A DNA stretch of 49,115 nucleotides from Deltaproteobacteria bacterium (lineage in GTDB: Bacteria; Bdellovibrionota_C; UBA2361; SZUA-149; JADLFC01): contig JADLFC010000133.1 in assembly GCA_020845775.1 (NCBI GenBank), positions 1 through 49,115 of the forward strand, written 5' to 3'. Positions 41,890 through 49,115 of the stretch are shown piece after piece. The number at the start of each line of letters is the position of its first letter. Position 1 is the stretch's first letter. The notes beneath the pieces were generated by a model. The model saw only the letters and a program-made list of their open reading frames with translations. It had not been told where the DNA came from and did no database searches. Position numbers and translations under genes: made by a program.

Positions 41890-43407
41890 TTGAATTCCAG
41901 ACAAGAGATGTGTCAAATAGCGTTTGATCTCATACCGCTTCCCTTGGCGGAGGTAGATGAGAACGGCAAAGTTATGTTTGCAAACTCCGCCTTATTATCT
42001 CTATGTGGATTGACGCTTGTTGAAGTATATAAGAAATCTTTTTATTCTTTTTGTTTTTTACAGGCTGAAGATGGGGCGATCTCGTTTCGCGGCATTAAGC
42101 AAGAGTCTGTGATGGAAGTTGATCTGGAGCATAAATCAGGTGAAAAGCACCCCTATAAGCTAAAGATCATTCCATTCCAGGATCTCTTGTCGAAGAGCAA
42201 GGCTCGGTTTTTCTTAATATTAGAGCCAAGCCAGAAGGAGTATCGGCAACAATTAGAGCAGTCTCACAAGCTAGAGTCGCTTGGATCCTTAGCTAGCAGC
42301 ATCGCTCACGACATAAATAACATTCTCGCCGGTGTGTTGGGTCACGTAACCTTTCTTAGGTTGTCTACGAGCAATTCTGGTTCGCAGCTCGAATCGATTG
42401 CCGCAATTGAAGATGGTGCGCGAAAGGCAGCGCATCTCACGCGTGAAATTTTGGATTATGCTCGAAATGAAAGTGTTGGCATGCATCCAATAAATTTTAG
42501 CCTTGTAATTGCAGGCGGGCTCAACCTCTTCAGAGGAGCTTTGCCAAAAAATATTCAGTTGCGGGTTGCCAGTGAGAAATCTGACGTTTTCGTTTTAGGA
42601 GATGAGAGCAAGCTTAGCCAGCTCTGCATGAATTTAGCGGTGAACGCGCGCGATGCCTTGCCCAGTGGTGGGCACATAGATGTTAGGGTTGAGCGCGTAA
42701 CGGTTGACGCGGCGAAGGCACCGCGACATGTCGGCAATCCACCGAGGACTCTTGTCGCAGGCGAGTATGCTCGCCTATCGATCGAGGACGATGGGATCGG
42801 AATGTCTAAGGAGGTGCAGAAGAGAATTTTCGAGCCATATTTTACGACCAAGGAGGCTGAAGGCACTGGACTGGGACTTGCGACAGTTTTGTCTATTGTA
42901 GAGAGCCATTTGGGCGCAGTGGAAGTCACTAGCAGGTTGGGAAAAGGTACACGGTTTGATGTGTACATACCGTTATGTGAGGGGTTTTTTGAAAGCGAGG
43001 TGGATGAGGAAAAGGATGAGGTGATCCCGGGTGGAAATGAGAGGATATTAGTCGTGGATGATGAGGAAGTTGTGCGCGCGGTTATTCAGCGTAGCCTTGA
43101 GCATTTCGGCTATGAAGTTGATATTGCCAAGGATGGCTTGGATGCTGTGGCGCGTTACCAAAATAACCGTCGCTCTTATAAACTTGTTATTCTCGATATG
43201 ATGATGCCGCATATGTCGGGGGATGAGGTGTTTAGGCGTTTGAGGGAGATCGATCGCGATGCCAAGGTTTTGCTGGTGAGTGGTTTTTCTAGCGAGGAAC
43301 GTGCTCAAAGTGTCCTTAAATCCGGGGGCTTGGGTTTTATTCAAAAGCCATTTGCCGTGGAAGAGCTCGCTAGGGAAGTGCGCAGGTGTTTGGATGCCGC
43401 TAGCTAA
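41890..43407 (+). CDS. Hybrid sensor histidine kinase (PAS-HisKA-HATPase-receiver)
   Basis: A 505-residue cytoplasmic protein. PAS domain at about 12-110. The HisKA helix has H140 in LGSLASSIAHDINNILAGVLGH, the NtrB-like HDINN form. HATPase_c has NLAVNARDALPSGG, IEDDGIGMSKEVQKRIFEPYFTTK and GTGLGLATV. A C-terminal receiver (about 383-505) has VVDDEEVV, the acceptor Asp in LVILDMMMPHMSG, and the lysine in GFIQKPF. The start is uncertain: a TTG at 41890 with AGAGG 9 nt upstream, or an ATG at 41908. It has a possible operator upstream and overlaps dusB by 14 nt. There is no separate output regulator next to it. Confidence 0.92.
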   Translation: MNSRQEMCQIAFDLIPLPLAEVDENGKVMFANSALLSLCGLTLVEVYKKSFYSFCFLQAEDGAISFRGIKQESVMEVDLEHKSGEKHPYKLKIIPFQDLLSKSKARFFLILEPSQKEYRQQLEQSHKLESLGSLASSIAHDINNILAGVLGHVTFLRLSTSNSGSQLESIAAIEDGARKAAHLTREILDYARNESVGMHPINFSLVIAGGLNLFRGALPKNIQLRVASEKSDVFVLGDESKLSQLCMNLAVNARDALPSGGHIDVRVERVTVDAAKAPRHVGNPPRTLVAGEYARLSIEDDGIGMSKEVQKRIFEPYFTTKEAEGTGLGLATVLSIVESHLGAVEVTSRLGKGTRFDVYIPLCEGFFESEVDEEKDEVIPGGNERILVVDDEEVVRAVIQRSLEHFGYEVDIAKDGLDAVARYQNNRRSYKLVILDMMMPHMSGDEVFRRLREIDRDAKVLLVSGFSSEERAQSVLKSGGLGFIQKPFAVEELAREVRRCLDAAS

Positions 43408-44371
43408 ACTCCAGATTGCCGCAGTTGAAATTAATCCAAATCTTATCCTTGCTCCTATGTCGGGGATAACCAATTGCTGCTTTCGTCGGCTCATTAAGCG
43501 CGTTAATCCAAACGCAGTTGGATTAGTAGTAAGCGAGTTCATTAGCGTTGAGGCTCTCTCGCGAAAAAACATGCGAAGTGTTGCAATGATGAAGATCCAT
43601 CCCGAGGAAAGACCCGTAGCGATTCAGGTTTTTGGGCATGATATAGCTCGGGTGGTGGATGCGGCGGTTATGGTAGAGCAGAGCGGTGCGGATATTCTCG
43701 ATATCAATAGCGGATGTCCGGTGCCTAAAGTCGTCAAGAAAGGAGGAGGTGCGGAACTCATGCGCCAGCCTGCGCATCTGGCAGAGCTATTAAGGCGCGT
43801 GCGAAAGGCAATCTCTATTCCATTGACGCTAAAAATCAGGTCTGGTTGGGACGAGAATAACAAGAATGCGCTTGAAATTGGGAAGATTGCCGCAGATAAT
43901 GGCGTAGATATGCTATGCGTGCATGGAAGGACTAGGAGCTCGCTGTATCGCGGGGAGGCTGATTGGGGTATCGTAGATGAGGTTGGGCGCTCGGTTAGTG
44001 TGCCGGTGGTGTGTAGCGGGGATGTAGCCGATGGAGCTACGGCTCGACGTTGTTTTGATTACGAAAATATTTCCGCTCTTATGATTGGTCGCGCGGTTTT
44101 GGCAAATCCATGGGTTTTTTCTGAGATAAAAGTGGCCATGAATGGCGGCGACTTTGTAGCTCCCGGCGAGATAGAGATAAGAAATCTTTTGCAGGAATAT
44201 AGGGAGATGTTGGTGCAAGAATTTTCTGATAGAGCTGCCTTGGGATATCTAAAGCAACTGTCTGTCAAAGTTACGAAGAGGGTTCCCAATTTAAGCGCGG
44301 TCAGGAAAAATTTATGCGCCGCAAAAACTGTGCGCGAGTTCGAAGATTCACTTAAAAGGTTGTCGAGTTGA
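43394..44371 (+). CDS. dusB: tRNA-dihydrouridine synthase (DusB type)
   Basis: A 325-residue flavoenzyme that reduces uridines in the tRNA D-loop. LAPMSGITNCCFRRL is the FMN strand, the catalytic cysteine is in DINSGCPVPKVVKKGGGAELMR, and LKIRSGWD, CVHGRTRSSLYRGEADW, VVCSGDV and ALMIGRAVLANPWVF follow the family. The DusB branch fits by the GCPxxK..GGGxxLM pattern. ATG at 43394 lies inside the end of the kinase gene (14-nt overlap) with GCAGG 7 nt upstream. An open frame extends to 43280, but that part is a shadow of the receiver domain. Confidence 0.93.
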   Translation: MPLAKLQIAAVEINPNLILAPMSGITNCCFRRLIKRVNPNAVGLVVSEFISVEALSRKNMRSVAMMKIHPEERPVAIQVFGHDIARVVDAAVMVEQSGADILDINSGCPVPKVVKKGGGAELMRQPAHLAELLRRVRKAISIPLTLKIRSGWDENNKNALEIGKIAADNGVDMLCVHGRTRSSLYRGEADWGIVDEVGRSVSVPVVCSGDVADGATARRCFDYENISALMIGRAVLANPWVFSEIKVAMNGGDFVAPGEIEIRNLLQEYREMLVQEFSDRAALGYLKQLSVKVTKRVPNLSAVRKNLCAAKTVREFEDSLKRLSS

Positions 44372-44398
44372 TGAGAGAAAGTGGATTAGGTTAATGAT

Positions 44399-45151
44399 AT
44401 GTTGAAGGTCGAGGGTGTAGGAAGGCAGTTTTCTCCAAAGTTTGCTCTGCGAGACATTTCATTTTCAATAGATGAGGCTGAAGTGGTGGGTTTGGTCGGT
44501 GCAGGTGGAAGTGGCAAGTCATTGTTGCTAAAGATTCTTGGTGGCGTCATTGCTCCTGAAGTCGGCTCAGTAGAGTATCCATTTGAGAATGGGAATATTG
44601 GATTTTTGTTTCAGGAGGGGGCTTTATTTGATTCGATGACGGTAATCGAAAATGTCGCGTTTCCCCTGTTGCAGAGGGCAAAAAGGGCTGAACGCGAAAT
44701 GTGTTATCGCAAAGCCTATGACATGTTATTTAGTTTGGGGTTGTCTCGAGCTACTGGCAAGCTTCCGGGCGAGTTAAGTGGGGGAATGCGGCGCCGCGTC
44801 GGTATTGCGCGAGCGCTAGTAGCGGAACCTAAGCTGGTTCTTTTGGACGATCCCACTGGCGGCTTGGATCCGGTGACGGCCAGTGTTCTCATGCAGCTAG
44901 TCAAGGATTTGCACAAGCGTTATAGACCGCGCATTGTGATGGCAAGTCACGACATAAGGCGTTTAATTCCTAACGTTGATAGGATTATAGCTATCTTTGA
45001 TGGAAAGCTTATTTGTAATGTTCGCAGCGTGGATATACTGAGAGATGCGCCGCCACGAGTGATAGAGTTCTTAAAGACGCGATTTTGTTTTTCGCAGCAA
45101 GTAGCAAATGCAAATGGGAAGTTATACCATTTACAAAAAGGATTTTTGTAA
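44399..45151 (+). CDS. Mla/Mkl-type ABC transporter ATP-binding protein
   Basis: A 250-residue ABC ATPase. Walker A is VGAGGSGKS (about 34-42), the signature is LSGGMRRRVGIARAL, the D loop is GGLDP, and the H-loop histidine is in VMASHDI. FQEGALFDSMTVIENVAFPL is typical of the MlaF/Mkl group that powers phospholipid transport. Walker B reads LVLLDDPTGG: the catalytic Glu that normally follows the Asp is Asp here. The last ten residues (LYHLQKGFL and the lysine before) and the stop lie inside the 126-bp hairpin repeat, so the natural C-terminus was probably replaced. The permease (MlaE) and MCE (MlaD) partners are not nearby; mlaA is 30 kb away. Confidence 0.85.
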   Translation: MLKVEGVGRQFSPKFALRDISFSIDEAEVVGLVGAGGSGKSLLLKILGGVIAPEVGSVEYPFENGNIGFLFQEGALFDSMTVIENVAFPLLQRAKRAEREMCYRKAYDMLFSLGLSRATGKLPGELSGGMRRRVGIARALVAEPKLVLLDDPTGGLDPVTASVLMQLVKDLHKRYRPRIVMASHDIRRLIPNVDRIIAIFDGKLICNVRSVDILRDAPPRVIEFLKTRFCFSQQVANANGKLYHLQKGFL

Positions 45152-45246
45152 ATGGTATAAACAGCAAGTGCGTAAGCACTTGCCAATAAACAACAAATAT
45201 CGTTTCCAAAAAGTAAAATATTTAACTTACTTTTTGGAAACGGTAT
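45121..45246. repeat. 126-bp triple-hairpin repeat, copy 1
   Basis: It matches 48990-49115 at 125 of 126 positions in the same orientation. Three hairpins follow in order: H1, a perfect 18-bp stem with a GGA loop (45122-45160); H2, an 8-bp stem with a GTAA (GNRA-type) tetraloop (45164-45183); H3, a 20-bp stem with a 10-nt loop (45197-45246). The one difference (T at 45200, C at 49069) changes a C-G pair in H3 to a T-G wobble, so the fold survives. It starts inside the ABC ATPase frame. There is no open reading frame in it. It may be a MITE- or REP-like mobile element or a repeated structured RNA. Confidence 0.9.
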
Positions 45247-45258
45247 AGATTAAGTGTG

Positions 45259-45302: not shown

Positions 45303-46079
45303 GTGACAAAGGATAGAAAATACATACGGGAGCAAAAGGCAAAATTCTTTACCGGCATGGGTGTTCCTAAACCAGCACCGTTTGTGCCGGATGCGTTTCA
45401 AAATGATGCCATCCGTTTTTTGGAGCAGAAGCTCGATACGCTCGTAATTGCGCCGACCGGTTCAGGTAAGACTTTTATTGCCATGCGCGCTATCGAAAAT
45501 ATTCTAGAGCGCGGCGGTAGAACCGTATACACAGCTCCACTTAAAGCTTTGTCTAACGCAAAGTACATGGAGTTTCGTTCTCGTTTTGAGCCTCAATACA
45601 GTGTCGGCTTGTTGACGGGGGATCGCAAAATCGAGGGCGATGCCGATATTGTCGTGGCAACCACTGAGATTTATCGAAACGAATTGTATAGTTCGCGTGG
45701 GAGTTACGATTTGGTGGTTTTAGATGAGTTTCACTATTTGGCAGATTCGCAGCGCGGTCCGGTGTGGGAGGAGAGTGTTATCTTGTCGCCTCGGTCTGCT
45801 ACGCTTTTGATGTTGTCGGCTTCAATATCTAATCCGCAAGATATAGCGCAGTGGATTGAGACAATTCGACATCGTCAGGTTATGGTTGTAAGTGTCGAGA
45901 AGCGGCCAGTTGAGTTGAGACTTGGGTTTTTGCATCCTACATACGGAGTCATACCACTCGAAGATAAAGACCAAAAAGCCTCTTCTGCAGTGGAGGAGTT
46001 CTACGGCAAGCAAGGGTTTAAGGGACCGGGAGGGAAGAGCTGGGCGAGGTTTAGGAAGGGGAGCTCGAGGGCGGGTTGA
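45303..46079 (+). CDS. Ski2-like DEAD/DEAH RNA helicase, N-terminal (RecA1) part
   Basis: The first 258 residues of a superfamily 2 helicase. Motif I is APTGSGKTFIA, Ia is TAPLKALSNAKY, Ib is GLLTGDRKI and VATTEIYRNEL, II is VVLDEFHYLAD (DEFH in place of DEVH), III is LSASISN. A GTG start follows GGAG at short spacing. The frame ends at an in-frame TGA (46077-46079) in an Arg/Gly/Lys-rich linker; the remaining helicase domains continue in exactly the same frame from 46089. So this is half of one ancestral gene. A CGA to TGA change is the simplest origin. Confidence 0.85.
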   Translation: MTKDRKYIREQKAKFFTGMGVPKPAPFVPDAFQNDAIRFLEQKLDTLVIAPTGSGKTFIAMRAIENILERGGRTVYTAPLKALSNAKYMEFRSRFEPQYSVGLLTGDRKIEGDADIVVATTEIYRNELYSSRGSYDLVVLDEFHYLADSQRGPVWEESVILSPRSATLLMLSASISNPQDIAQWIETIRHRQVMVVSVEKRPVELRLGFLHPTYGVIPLEDKDQKASSAVEEFYGKQGFKGPGGKSWARFRKGSSRAG

Positions 46080-46088
46080 GGTACGAAG

Positions 46089-47537
46089 ATGCATAGAGAA
46101 GTTCACATTTCAGAAATTTTATTACAGCTGGAGAGAGACGATCTTCTGCCGGCAATTGTTTTTCGCACGTCCAGAGCTCAGTGTGATGCAGATGTGCTTC
46201 GAGCTACGGGGAACAAGAAGCTTGAACTCCCTGTGCATAGGCAGGCTGAACTCTCTCGTTCGATCGAGGAGATTATTGTGCGCTATGACATGGATGCAGA
46301 GCTAATTCGCGCTCATGAACAGTACGATGGACTTATTCGCACTGGTATTGGAGCACATCATGCTGGTCAATTGTTAATTTGGCGCCTCTTGTTGGAAGAA
46401 ACTATGGCGTTGGGACAGCTTAGGATTTTGGTAGCAACGGGAACAGTGGCGGCTGGAGTGGATTTCCCTGCTAGGACTGTGGTCGTAACGGCGCATTCTA
46501 GGAGAGGAGCAGACGGCTTTCAGAACTTTTCATCGACTGAGTTTCAGCAGATGTCTGGTCGTGCAGGAAGGCGAGGCAAGGACACTGTGGGTTTTTGCAT
46601 AGTTGCGCCCGGGCCGTTTTGCGACGCTCGACAGCTCTTGGAGATTGCCCATAAACCCGCTAACCCGTTGTCTTCAGCTTATTTTCCGAGCTCAAGCACC
46701 GTGCTAAATCTCTTGCGGTACAGAAACGTGGACGATTTGCGCTACACCGTGGGCAAGAGCTTGGCGTCTTTCTTTGACAAGAGAGAGGCAGGAAAGCTTA
46801 GACAGGATGGGGCGGTTTTAGAGGAGAAGTTAAGCTCGGTCGGGTACCCCGTTTTGGCGTCTCAGGAGGATGGAGGAGGGGACAAGGATTGGAAGCGCAT
46901 AAGAAAAAAGATGAATCGTTTAAAACGAGGCGCTGAGGAGTTAGAGACGCGTCAGCTAGCTATGATAGATCAAGCCTTAAAAGGCCTTGAGACTTTGGGG
47001 TACGTAAGCGGCATATCGTTGTCGGAGAAGGGTTACTGGGCTGCAAATTTGTGCACTGACCTAGTTCTAGAACTCGGAGAGATTATTCAGGCAGGCGTTC
47101 TCGATGGCGTGTCAGCAGAGTACCTAGCGGCAATTATGGGATCTCTAGCTGGGGATCCACATAGAAAGTATTTATCTAACAAGAAGGTTAATGTATTAAA
47201 AAAGGAGGATGTTGAGTCGCTTCGGTCAATCTTGGCTAGGGTGGGAGCTGTGGATATGCCAGGTACTAAAAGTGAGCGCGATGTGCTCGAGTCTGGCGCA
47301 TACACGGTAATGATGTGGCTTCAGGCAAATAATTGGCAGGAATTCCGCTCCATATTACTGCTCTCTCGTGTGGCTGAGGGTGACGCTGCTCGGCTATTAA
47401 CTCAAACTGCCGATTATTTGAATCAGTTAAGTCGGCTTTCCGATACGCATAGAGAGCTAAGTTTCCGTGCGACCGAAGCCAAGCGGCGTATATTGAGACC
47501 ACCGCTTAGCGACGCTATCAATCTCGATACGCTGTGA
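46089..47537 (+). CDS. Ski2-like RNA helicase, C-terminal (RecA2 and accessory) part
   Basis: 482 residues in the same frame as 45303-46079. Motif IV is LPAIVFRTSRAQCD, GIGAHHAGQL is typical of the Ski2/Mtr4 group, motif V is VATGTVAAGVDFPARTVVV, VI is QMSGRAGRRGKD. A helical C-terminal region follows (about 200-480), with the family's winged-helix and ratchet-like segments. The ATG has GAGG 7 nt upstream, and that GAGG includes the last two bases of the TGA and the two that follow, so ribosomes ending the first part could restart here. Alternatives are a recent nonsense mutation or readthrough. Confidence 0.85.
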   Translation: MHREVHISEILLQLERDDLLPAIVFRTSRAQCDADVLRATGNKKLELPVHRQAELSRSIEEIIVRYDMDAELIRAHEQYDGLIRTGIGAHHAGQLLIWRLLLEETMALGQLRILVATGTVAAGVDFPARTVVVTAHSRRGADGFQNFSSTEFQQMSGRAGRRGKDTVGFCIVAPGPFCDARQLLEIAHKPANPLSSAYFPSSSTVLNLLRYRNVDDLRYTVGKSLASFFDKREAGKLRQDGAVLEEKLSSVGYPVLASQEDGGGDKDWKRIRKKMNRLKRGAEELETRQLAMIDQALKGLETLGYVSGISLSEKGYWAANLCTDLVLELGEIIQAGVLDGVSAEYLAAIMGSLAGDPHRKYLSNKKVNVLKKEDVESLRSILARVGAVDMPGTKSERDVLESGAYTVMMWLQANNWQEFRSILLLSRVAEGDAARLLTQTADYLNQLSRLSDTHRELSFRATEAKRRILRPPLSDAINLDTL

Positions 47538-47702: not shown

Positions 47703-48149
47703 ATGGTGTTAAGCCATTATTGCGAGCCGGAGAAATACAATATGAGTGATTATGTAGCAGCTGACTTCGTTTCTAATCTTTTTGAGCCAGATATTATTCT
47801 TCCAACACAAATAAATGGGGTTAGCGAGAGAGGAATTTGCGGTGGCGAAAGGAGGCTTATGGCGGCCTTGTTATCGGATGGTATCGAGGCGTATGTCTCG
47901 CAATGCCGTGGTGTTAGATCTAGGTGGACGCATGACGCAGGGGTAGATGCAGAGGAGTGGATCGATAATAACGACCAGAGTTACGTTTTTAGTTTTGATG
48001 TCGTTTGCGAATGTTTAGGAATAGATCCTCAATACCTGCGAAGTGGGCTTAAGCGCTACGTAAGTGAAATGCAAAATTATTCCATCCATGCAAACGAGAT
48101 AGATGAGGCGGTAACGGCTTGGAAAAAAATTAGGCGCCCAAGAATCTAG
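47703..48149 (+). CDS. Small helical protein, paralogue of the 48.2-kb gene
   Basis: A 148-residue protein of unknown function. The core (GGERRLMAALLSDGIEAYVS..AEEWIDNNDQSYVFSFDVVCECLGIDPQYLRSGLKRYV) aligns with the 108-residue protein at 48.2-48.5 kb. The pattern ERRL-x-A-x-L...EW...F-x-F-x-x-V-C-E-x-L...D...LR...K-R suggests a helical fold whose second half looks like a helix-turn-helix. A DNA-binding role is inference. GAGGG lies 7 nt before the ATG; an ATG at 47742 also has a GGAG. It has an extra N-terminus of about 45 residues compared with its paralogue. Confidence 0.75.
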   Translation: MVLSHYCEPEKYNMSDYVAADFVSNLFEPDIILPTQINGVSERGICGGERRLMAALLSDGIEAYVSQCRGVRSRWTHDAGVDAEEWIDNNDQSYVFSFDVVCECLGIDPQYLRSGLKRYVSEMQNYSIHANEIDEAVTAWKKIRRPRI

Positions 48150-48215: not shown

Positions 48216-48542
48216 TTATGCAGCTTCGGTGTTGTTGTGGTGCTGTATAAGGGCTTTTAGTGTGCTGTCAGATCGCTGTGCCTCTTCAAACTGCCTTTTT
48301 ATAGCCTTCCTTAGCTCATCGCCGTGAAAATCAAGCGCCTCACAGACATACCTAAAACCAAAAAAAGACGTGTGGTGAAGCTCGTCTGACTTATACAGCC
48401 ACTCATAAGCCGACTCCTGGAGTTCTCCTTCTCCAGTGAGATAATCCGTGATCGCTCGCTGAAGTACCGCTGCGAGAAGGCGGCGTTCTGGATTAAAGCT
48501 GTTTGTGCTGTGTTGTGTCGTGCTGTTAGACCAAAGCTTCAT
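48216..48542 (-). CDS. Small helical protein, paralogue of the 47.7-kb gene
   Basis: A 108-residue protein with the same core: NPERRLLAAVLQRAITDYLTG..ESAYEWLYKSDELHHTSFFGFRYVCEALDFHGDELRKAIKRQ. No named function is recognised. It converges with its paralogue across 66 bp. The promoter and a palindrome lie upstream at 48562-48591. The ribosome-binding site GGAGAGG is rather far (about 12 nt) from the ATG. Probably a small DNA- or protein-binding factor. Confidence 0.75.
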   Translation of the reverse strand: MKLWSNSTTQHSTNSFNPERRLLAAVLQRAITDYLTGEGELQESAYEWLYKSDELHHTSFFGFRYVCEALDFHGDELRKAIKRQFEEAQRSDSTLKALIQHHNNTEAA

Positions 48543-48980: not shown

Positions 48981-48989
48981 CTAGGCCGA

Positions 48990-49115
48990 GTTATACCATT
49001 TACAAAAAGGATTTTTGTAAATGGTATAAACAGCAAGTGCGTAAGCACTTGCCAATAAACAACAAATACCGTTTCCAAAAAGTAAAATATTTAACTTACT
49101 TTTTGGAAACGGTAT
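48990..49115. repeat. 126-bp triple-hairpin repeat, copy 2 (reaches window end)
   Basis: Same orientation as copy 1, 3869 bp further on. H1 48991-49029, H2 49033-49052, H3 49066-49115, all stems perfect. The window stops at the last base of H3, so the true right end of the element cannot be seen. The left boundary agrees with copy 1 to within a base (identity begins at 48989/45120). Confidence 0.9.

Follow-up and report, generated by a model that had tools for sequence, protein, structure and literature searches.

In SF2 helicases, ATP is held between two RecA domains, RecA1 with motifs I and II and RecA2 with motif VI. Because the ATP site lies between them, RecA1 and RecA2 of SF1 and SF2 helicases have, to our knowledge, been regarded as two parts of a single chain that cannot be separated. 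The break in the reverse gyrase of Nanoarchaeum equitans reportedly separates the helicase from the topoisomerase and leaves RecA1-RecA2 whole. This SF2-motor enzyme has a natural two-ORF form (PMC3491384). The DrmA and DrmB proteins of DISARM (YprA family) place SF2 helicase parts on separate genes (PMC12458937), the split separating the helicase from an OB-CON-DUF1998 array, not RecA1 from RecA2 (PMC12458937). In known split SF2-motor enzymes the cut seems to lie outside the RecA1-RecA2 core, and no report of a natural RecA1/RecA2 split was found in the literature searched, which comprised open-licence papers. The single-polypeptide core usual in Ski2-like SF2 helicases (Mtr4/Ski2 branch) is absent from the system described here, two ORFs being found in every genome of the host's phylum that has the gene and in the Acidobacteriota examined.

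The window is a 49,115-nucleotide stretch from a Deltaproteobacteria bacterium (GTDB phylum Bdellovibrionota_C; assembly GCA_020845775.1, contig JADLFC010000133.1). Gene A (45303..46079, + strand; GTG start, TGA stop) encodes the 258-residue N-half subunit, comprising RecA1 with motifs I to III and a basic Gly/Arg/Lys tail. Gene B (46089..47537, + strand) encodes the 482-residue C-half subunit, comprising RecA2 with motifs IV to VI, a winged helix and a helical bundle/DSHCT. The two genes share one frame, the ATG of gene B lying 9 nt past the gene A stop, and the gene A/gene B helicase is present as a single copy in its own genome (2.57 Mb in 189 contigs). In Pfam, the gene A product matches PF00270 (1.9e-24) and the gene B product matches PF08148 DSHCT (4.7e-14; 47019..47504, + strand) and PF00271 (5.5e-06). 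A domain search with the chain read through the TGA recovered the full domain order, and profile searches with each half separately gave the Mtr4/Ski2 families as best sequence matches.

The catalytic motifs are distributed over the two ORFs. Motifs I, Ia, Ib, II and III are all present in the gene A half and motifs IV, V and VI in the gene B half, and alignments of 24 sequences show them to be near invariant in both. In motif I (Walker A, APTGSGKT; 45450..45473, + strand) residues A50, P51, T52, G53, G55, K56 and T57 are invariant and position 54 varies; in motif II (DEFH, of the DExH type; 45723..45734, + strand) D141, E142 and H144 are invariant. Motif V of gene B, ATGTVAAGVDFP (46434..46469, + strand), is invariant in 24 of 24 sequences, as are R158 and R161 of motif VI, the arginine-finger motif QMSGRAGRRG (46548..46577, + strand). 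The ORFs, Pfam matches and alignments together confirm the original prediction that two in-frame halves carry motifs I-VI in order.

A structure was modeled with AlphaFold2 for the read-through single chain, with the TGA entered as W and an alignment of 41 sequences drawn from the phylum and from fused homologues. The resulting fold is a confident, complete Mtr4/Ski2 core (pLDDT 88.7, pTM 0.83), obtained from halves joined in one chain and from an alignment that includes natural single-chain relatives, and as such cannot prove that separate chains assemble. Among PDB structures it resembles Mtr4 and Ski2 most closely (Foldseek 1e-38), the best fold match being Mtr4 with Z 33.7 and rmsd 4.0 over 645 residues. 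The PF08148 match and the Mtr4 fold alignment, which spans residues 25-739, place the winged helix and the ratchet/helical bundle with DSHCT. The insertion in the window protein is short and helical (~residues 487-564 of the model), and no arch-like beta domain was seen there. The pLDDT falls below 50 only in the last seven residues and at residues 238-261, a disordered internal stretch that contains the stop position and corresponds to the R/G-rich tail around it. The TGA at 46077-46079 thus falls in the basic linker between RecA1 and RecA2, where it had been placed from the sequence.

The stop itself (46077..46079, + strand) is genuine, a stop being found at the same junction in every relative. 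It is preceded by the low-complexity basic tail GKQGFKGPGGKSWARFRKGSSRAG (46005..46076, + strand), which forms the C-terminus of gene A and occupies the same place in relatives; in the phylum this tail is mostly 23-54 residues long with 24-50% K/R, and is shorter in two deep branches (L063 and L064). A Shine-Dalgarno-like GAGG (46078..46081, + strand) overlaps the TGA and stands 7 nt before the ATG of gene B, as noted earlier. Such sites occur at 21 of 29 gene A/gene B junctions, which is weak evidence alone because the sequence before them is G-rich coding DNA for Arg/Gly. The segment 46078-46089 was not retained as a special reinitiation signal.

Gene A was searched for across the whole phylum, in genomes most of which are MAGs. 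A strong match was found in 42 of 46 genomes, always in a short ORF and never fused, the 751-residue length listed for the window's own match reflecting only its continuation past the TGA. The four genomes with no good match include three that are less than 90% complete and one (G003) at 91%. Gene B was found in 47 of 58 genomes, and its full-length matches within the window's order and class are open frames of ~460-550 residues with no RecA1 fusion. By position, gene B adjoins gene A in 41 of the 42 genomes. In the remaining one (G034) the halves lie on different contigs, the C-half ~150 nt and the N-half 244 nt from contig ends, so that true separation is not demonstrated there. Comparison of orthologues in relatives had been set beforehand as the test that could refute a real split; none of the 42 was uninterrupted, and the split stands.

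The junction could be read at 29 loci, window included, whose contigs extend far enough. At all 29, A and B are separate neighbouring ORFs. The distance from gene A stop to gene B start has a median of +2 nt and lies within -20 to +12 in 26 of the 29, with the reservation that some gene B starts were chosen automatically and may be off. The relative frames 0/1/2 are represented by 9/5/15 pairs, and since the frame varies in this way the in-frame arrangement of the TGA in the window is a coincidence occurring at about the chance rate. Between species pairs, dN is 0.06-0.13 in both halves with dS saturated or nearly so, so that both are under purifying selection. These comparisons indicate that the stop codon in the window is no accident and marks a conserved fission.

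The same architecture was encountered among 32 genomes searched outside the phylum, weak general helicase matches being set aside. Blastocatellia-type Acidobacteriota encode stand-alone halves cut at the same linker. A strong N-half occurs once in 28 of their 29 genomes and a C-half once in all 29, and no fused copy was found. The acidobacterial A also has a short, Arg-rich C-terminal tail, as well as a basic N-terminal extension. Of the 28 acidobacterial pairs, 3 are adjacent, 4 lie 2.1-29 kb apart on one contig and 21 are divided between contigs. At L102 and L110 the halves have other ORFs between them. The separation is not an effect of contig breaks, because ~20 C-half loci extend 5 kb upstream and no N-half is present there. 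The C-half adjoins lytB (ispH) in all three loci checked. Acidobacterial C-halves (L143-L171) occur as a short form of ~430 residues or a long form of ~620 residues with an insert between the winged helix and DSHCT; each genome has one form, and the forms largely track tree subclades. A survey of PF08148 in 383 genomes found DSHCT outside the phylum in ORFs of at least 643 residues, with a single 579-residue exception (G331) that is cut off by the start of its contig.

A quick first tree of 82 concatenated cores united the split rows of the phylum (support 100) and, separately, those of the Acidobacteriota (99). It put the fused Thermodesulfobacteriota next to the split Acidobacteriota with support of 82. 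Constraining all split rows together yielded a better tree (lnL +12.9, p-AU 0.738), and because of this a single fission origin is allowed; neither one nor two origins is shown.

It is highly probable that one Ski2/Mtr4-like helicase with a composite ATPase site is built from A and B as obligate subunits, a reading in which physical assembly, ATPase and helicase activity, an RNA substrate and a role for the tail are inferred. ATP would be bound by motifs I and II of the RecA1 subunit, A. The other subunit, B, which comprises RecA2, the winged helix and the DSHCT bundle, would provide the motif VI arginine fingers and the nucleic-acid channel. Because motifs I and II are only on A and motif VI only on B, neither would be a complete ATPase alone and an A-B heterodimer is likely, on which ATP hydrolysis and 3'-5' translocation would depend. 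Through the fission, the RecA1-RecA2 linker would have become the free end of A, a basic Gly/Arg-rich tail that probably binds RNA or helps B to dock. The wider reading, an obligate RecA1/RecA2 heterodimer with a shared ATPase site that is phylum-wide, is encoded by mostly unlinked genes in Acidobacteriota and possibly goes back to one ancient fission, is also likely.

In the phylum, A stops and B starts overlap or nearly touch, and we infer from this that A and B may be made in step by translational coupling; in Blastocatellia-type Acidobacteriota the corresponding subunits would come from usually unlinked genes. Since the acidobacterial halves are usually at separate loci, termination-reinitiation is not needed for the split system to exist. 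The original prediction of a real two-polypeptide helicase is right on the two ORFs, found in 42 of 42 genomes; the shared frame and reinitiation are incidental to it.

Among the alternatives, the one that fares best is that the halves have separate jobs and do not form one helicase, A or B working with other partners. The lost linkage in Acidobacteriota, which permits independent regulation, is in keeping with it. Nevertheless, the motifs of the composite site are still complete in both halves, no split genome with a fused copy was found and nearly all split genomes keep both halves, so separate functions are improbable. Programmed readthrough or frameshifting, giving a full-length fusion besides the short product, is much less probable still. 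The halves do share a frame in 9 of the 29 pairs, but relatives differ freely in stop type and relative frame, each of frames 1 and 2 would call for a recoding event of its own and two loci (L005 and L006) have extra stops between the halves. Readthrough is impossible with halves at different loci, as in Acidobacteriota, and the suggestion to that effect in the original prediction is excluded. Its further suggestion, a fresh nonsense mutation (CGA to TGA) in a single-chain helicase, to which a sequencing error may be added, took its appeal from halves in one frame 9 nt apart and from the fused homologues of other phyla; with no intact orthologue in the phylum, 42 split genomes of which many are in another frame, agreement between independent assemblies and acidobacterial halves usually at different loci, it has practically no chance of being correct. 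Equally negligible is a split intein that joins the halves after translation, as split inteins do for proteins from genes split between loci, because no intein domain was found in either half by domain search and the junction offers a short variable R/G tail and ~10 residues before RecA2, far below the length of an intein half.

The adjoining genes that were examined gave no firm functional clue for A/B. A histidine kinase-response regulator hybrid, Dus and an ABC ATPase lie upstream (41890..45151, + strand), followed by A and B. The upstream neighbours are of the same families and in the same order at two other loci (L046 and L064), and at several further loci the upstream ORFs match the window in size and order. 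Dus modifies tRNA, and its presence next door hints at RNA metabolism for A/B and proves nothing. Taken from its first start codon, the Dus ORF (43280-44371) shares 128 nt with the histidine kinase ORF before it, and translation probably begins at a later start codon. An element of ~125 bp with several hairpins occurs at 45122-45247, directly before gene A, and at 48989-49115. At least 40 copies of ~98% identity exist in the genome (40 scored among 195 first-look candidates), many of them at contig ends, as would suit a high-copy MITE- or REP-like repeat at which the assembly breaks. Downstream, two small proteins with no Pfam match are encoded tail to tail (47703-48149, + strand, and 48216-48542, - strand) and are distant paralogues with 32% identity over 79 residues.

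If the two-subunit reading is true, a natural split that has become fixed would mean that the covalent RecA1-RecA2 linker is dispensable, and would offer a ready-made two-component motor for studies of domain closure. Control over the supply or docking of either half could then let a cell turn the motor on and off, and regulation by subunit assembly is a question that the fixed split raises. There is also a warning for annotation, as each half alone resembles a truncated helicase or a pseudogene.

Like the eukaryotic exosome helicases Mtr4 and Ski2, the A/B system runs from RecA1 through RecA2 and a winged helix to a helical bundle (DSHCT). However, Mtr4 and Ski2 are single chains with a KOW arch, whereas the window's helicase consists of two chains and appears to have only a short coiled-coil excursion in place of the arch; the insert is larger in some acidobacterial C-halves than the short helical one of the window. 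Hel308/Hjm has a Ski2-like fold like that of the A+B model (Z about 25), but it is a single-chain DNA repair helicase and its sequence and fold scores are below those of Mtr4. The DSHCT domain is also carried by the control genomes of Synechococcus elongatus and Corynebacterium glutamicum. The single-chain bacterial Ski2-like/DSHCT helicases of Thermodesulfobacteriota-type genomes (688-976 residues) are homologous to A+B over the whole core, and most of them, at 688-766 residues, approximate the sum of the two halves. Each is a single ORF whose linker runs on uninterrupted at the point occupied in the split forms by a basic tail and a stop. The reverse gyrase of N. equitans resembles A/B in being made from two genes, but only in A/B does the cut fall inside the motor.
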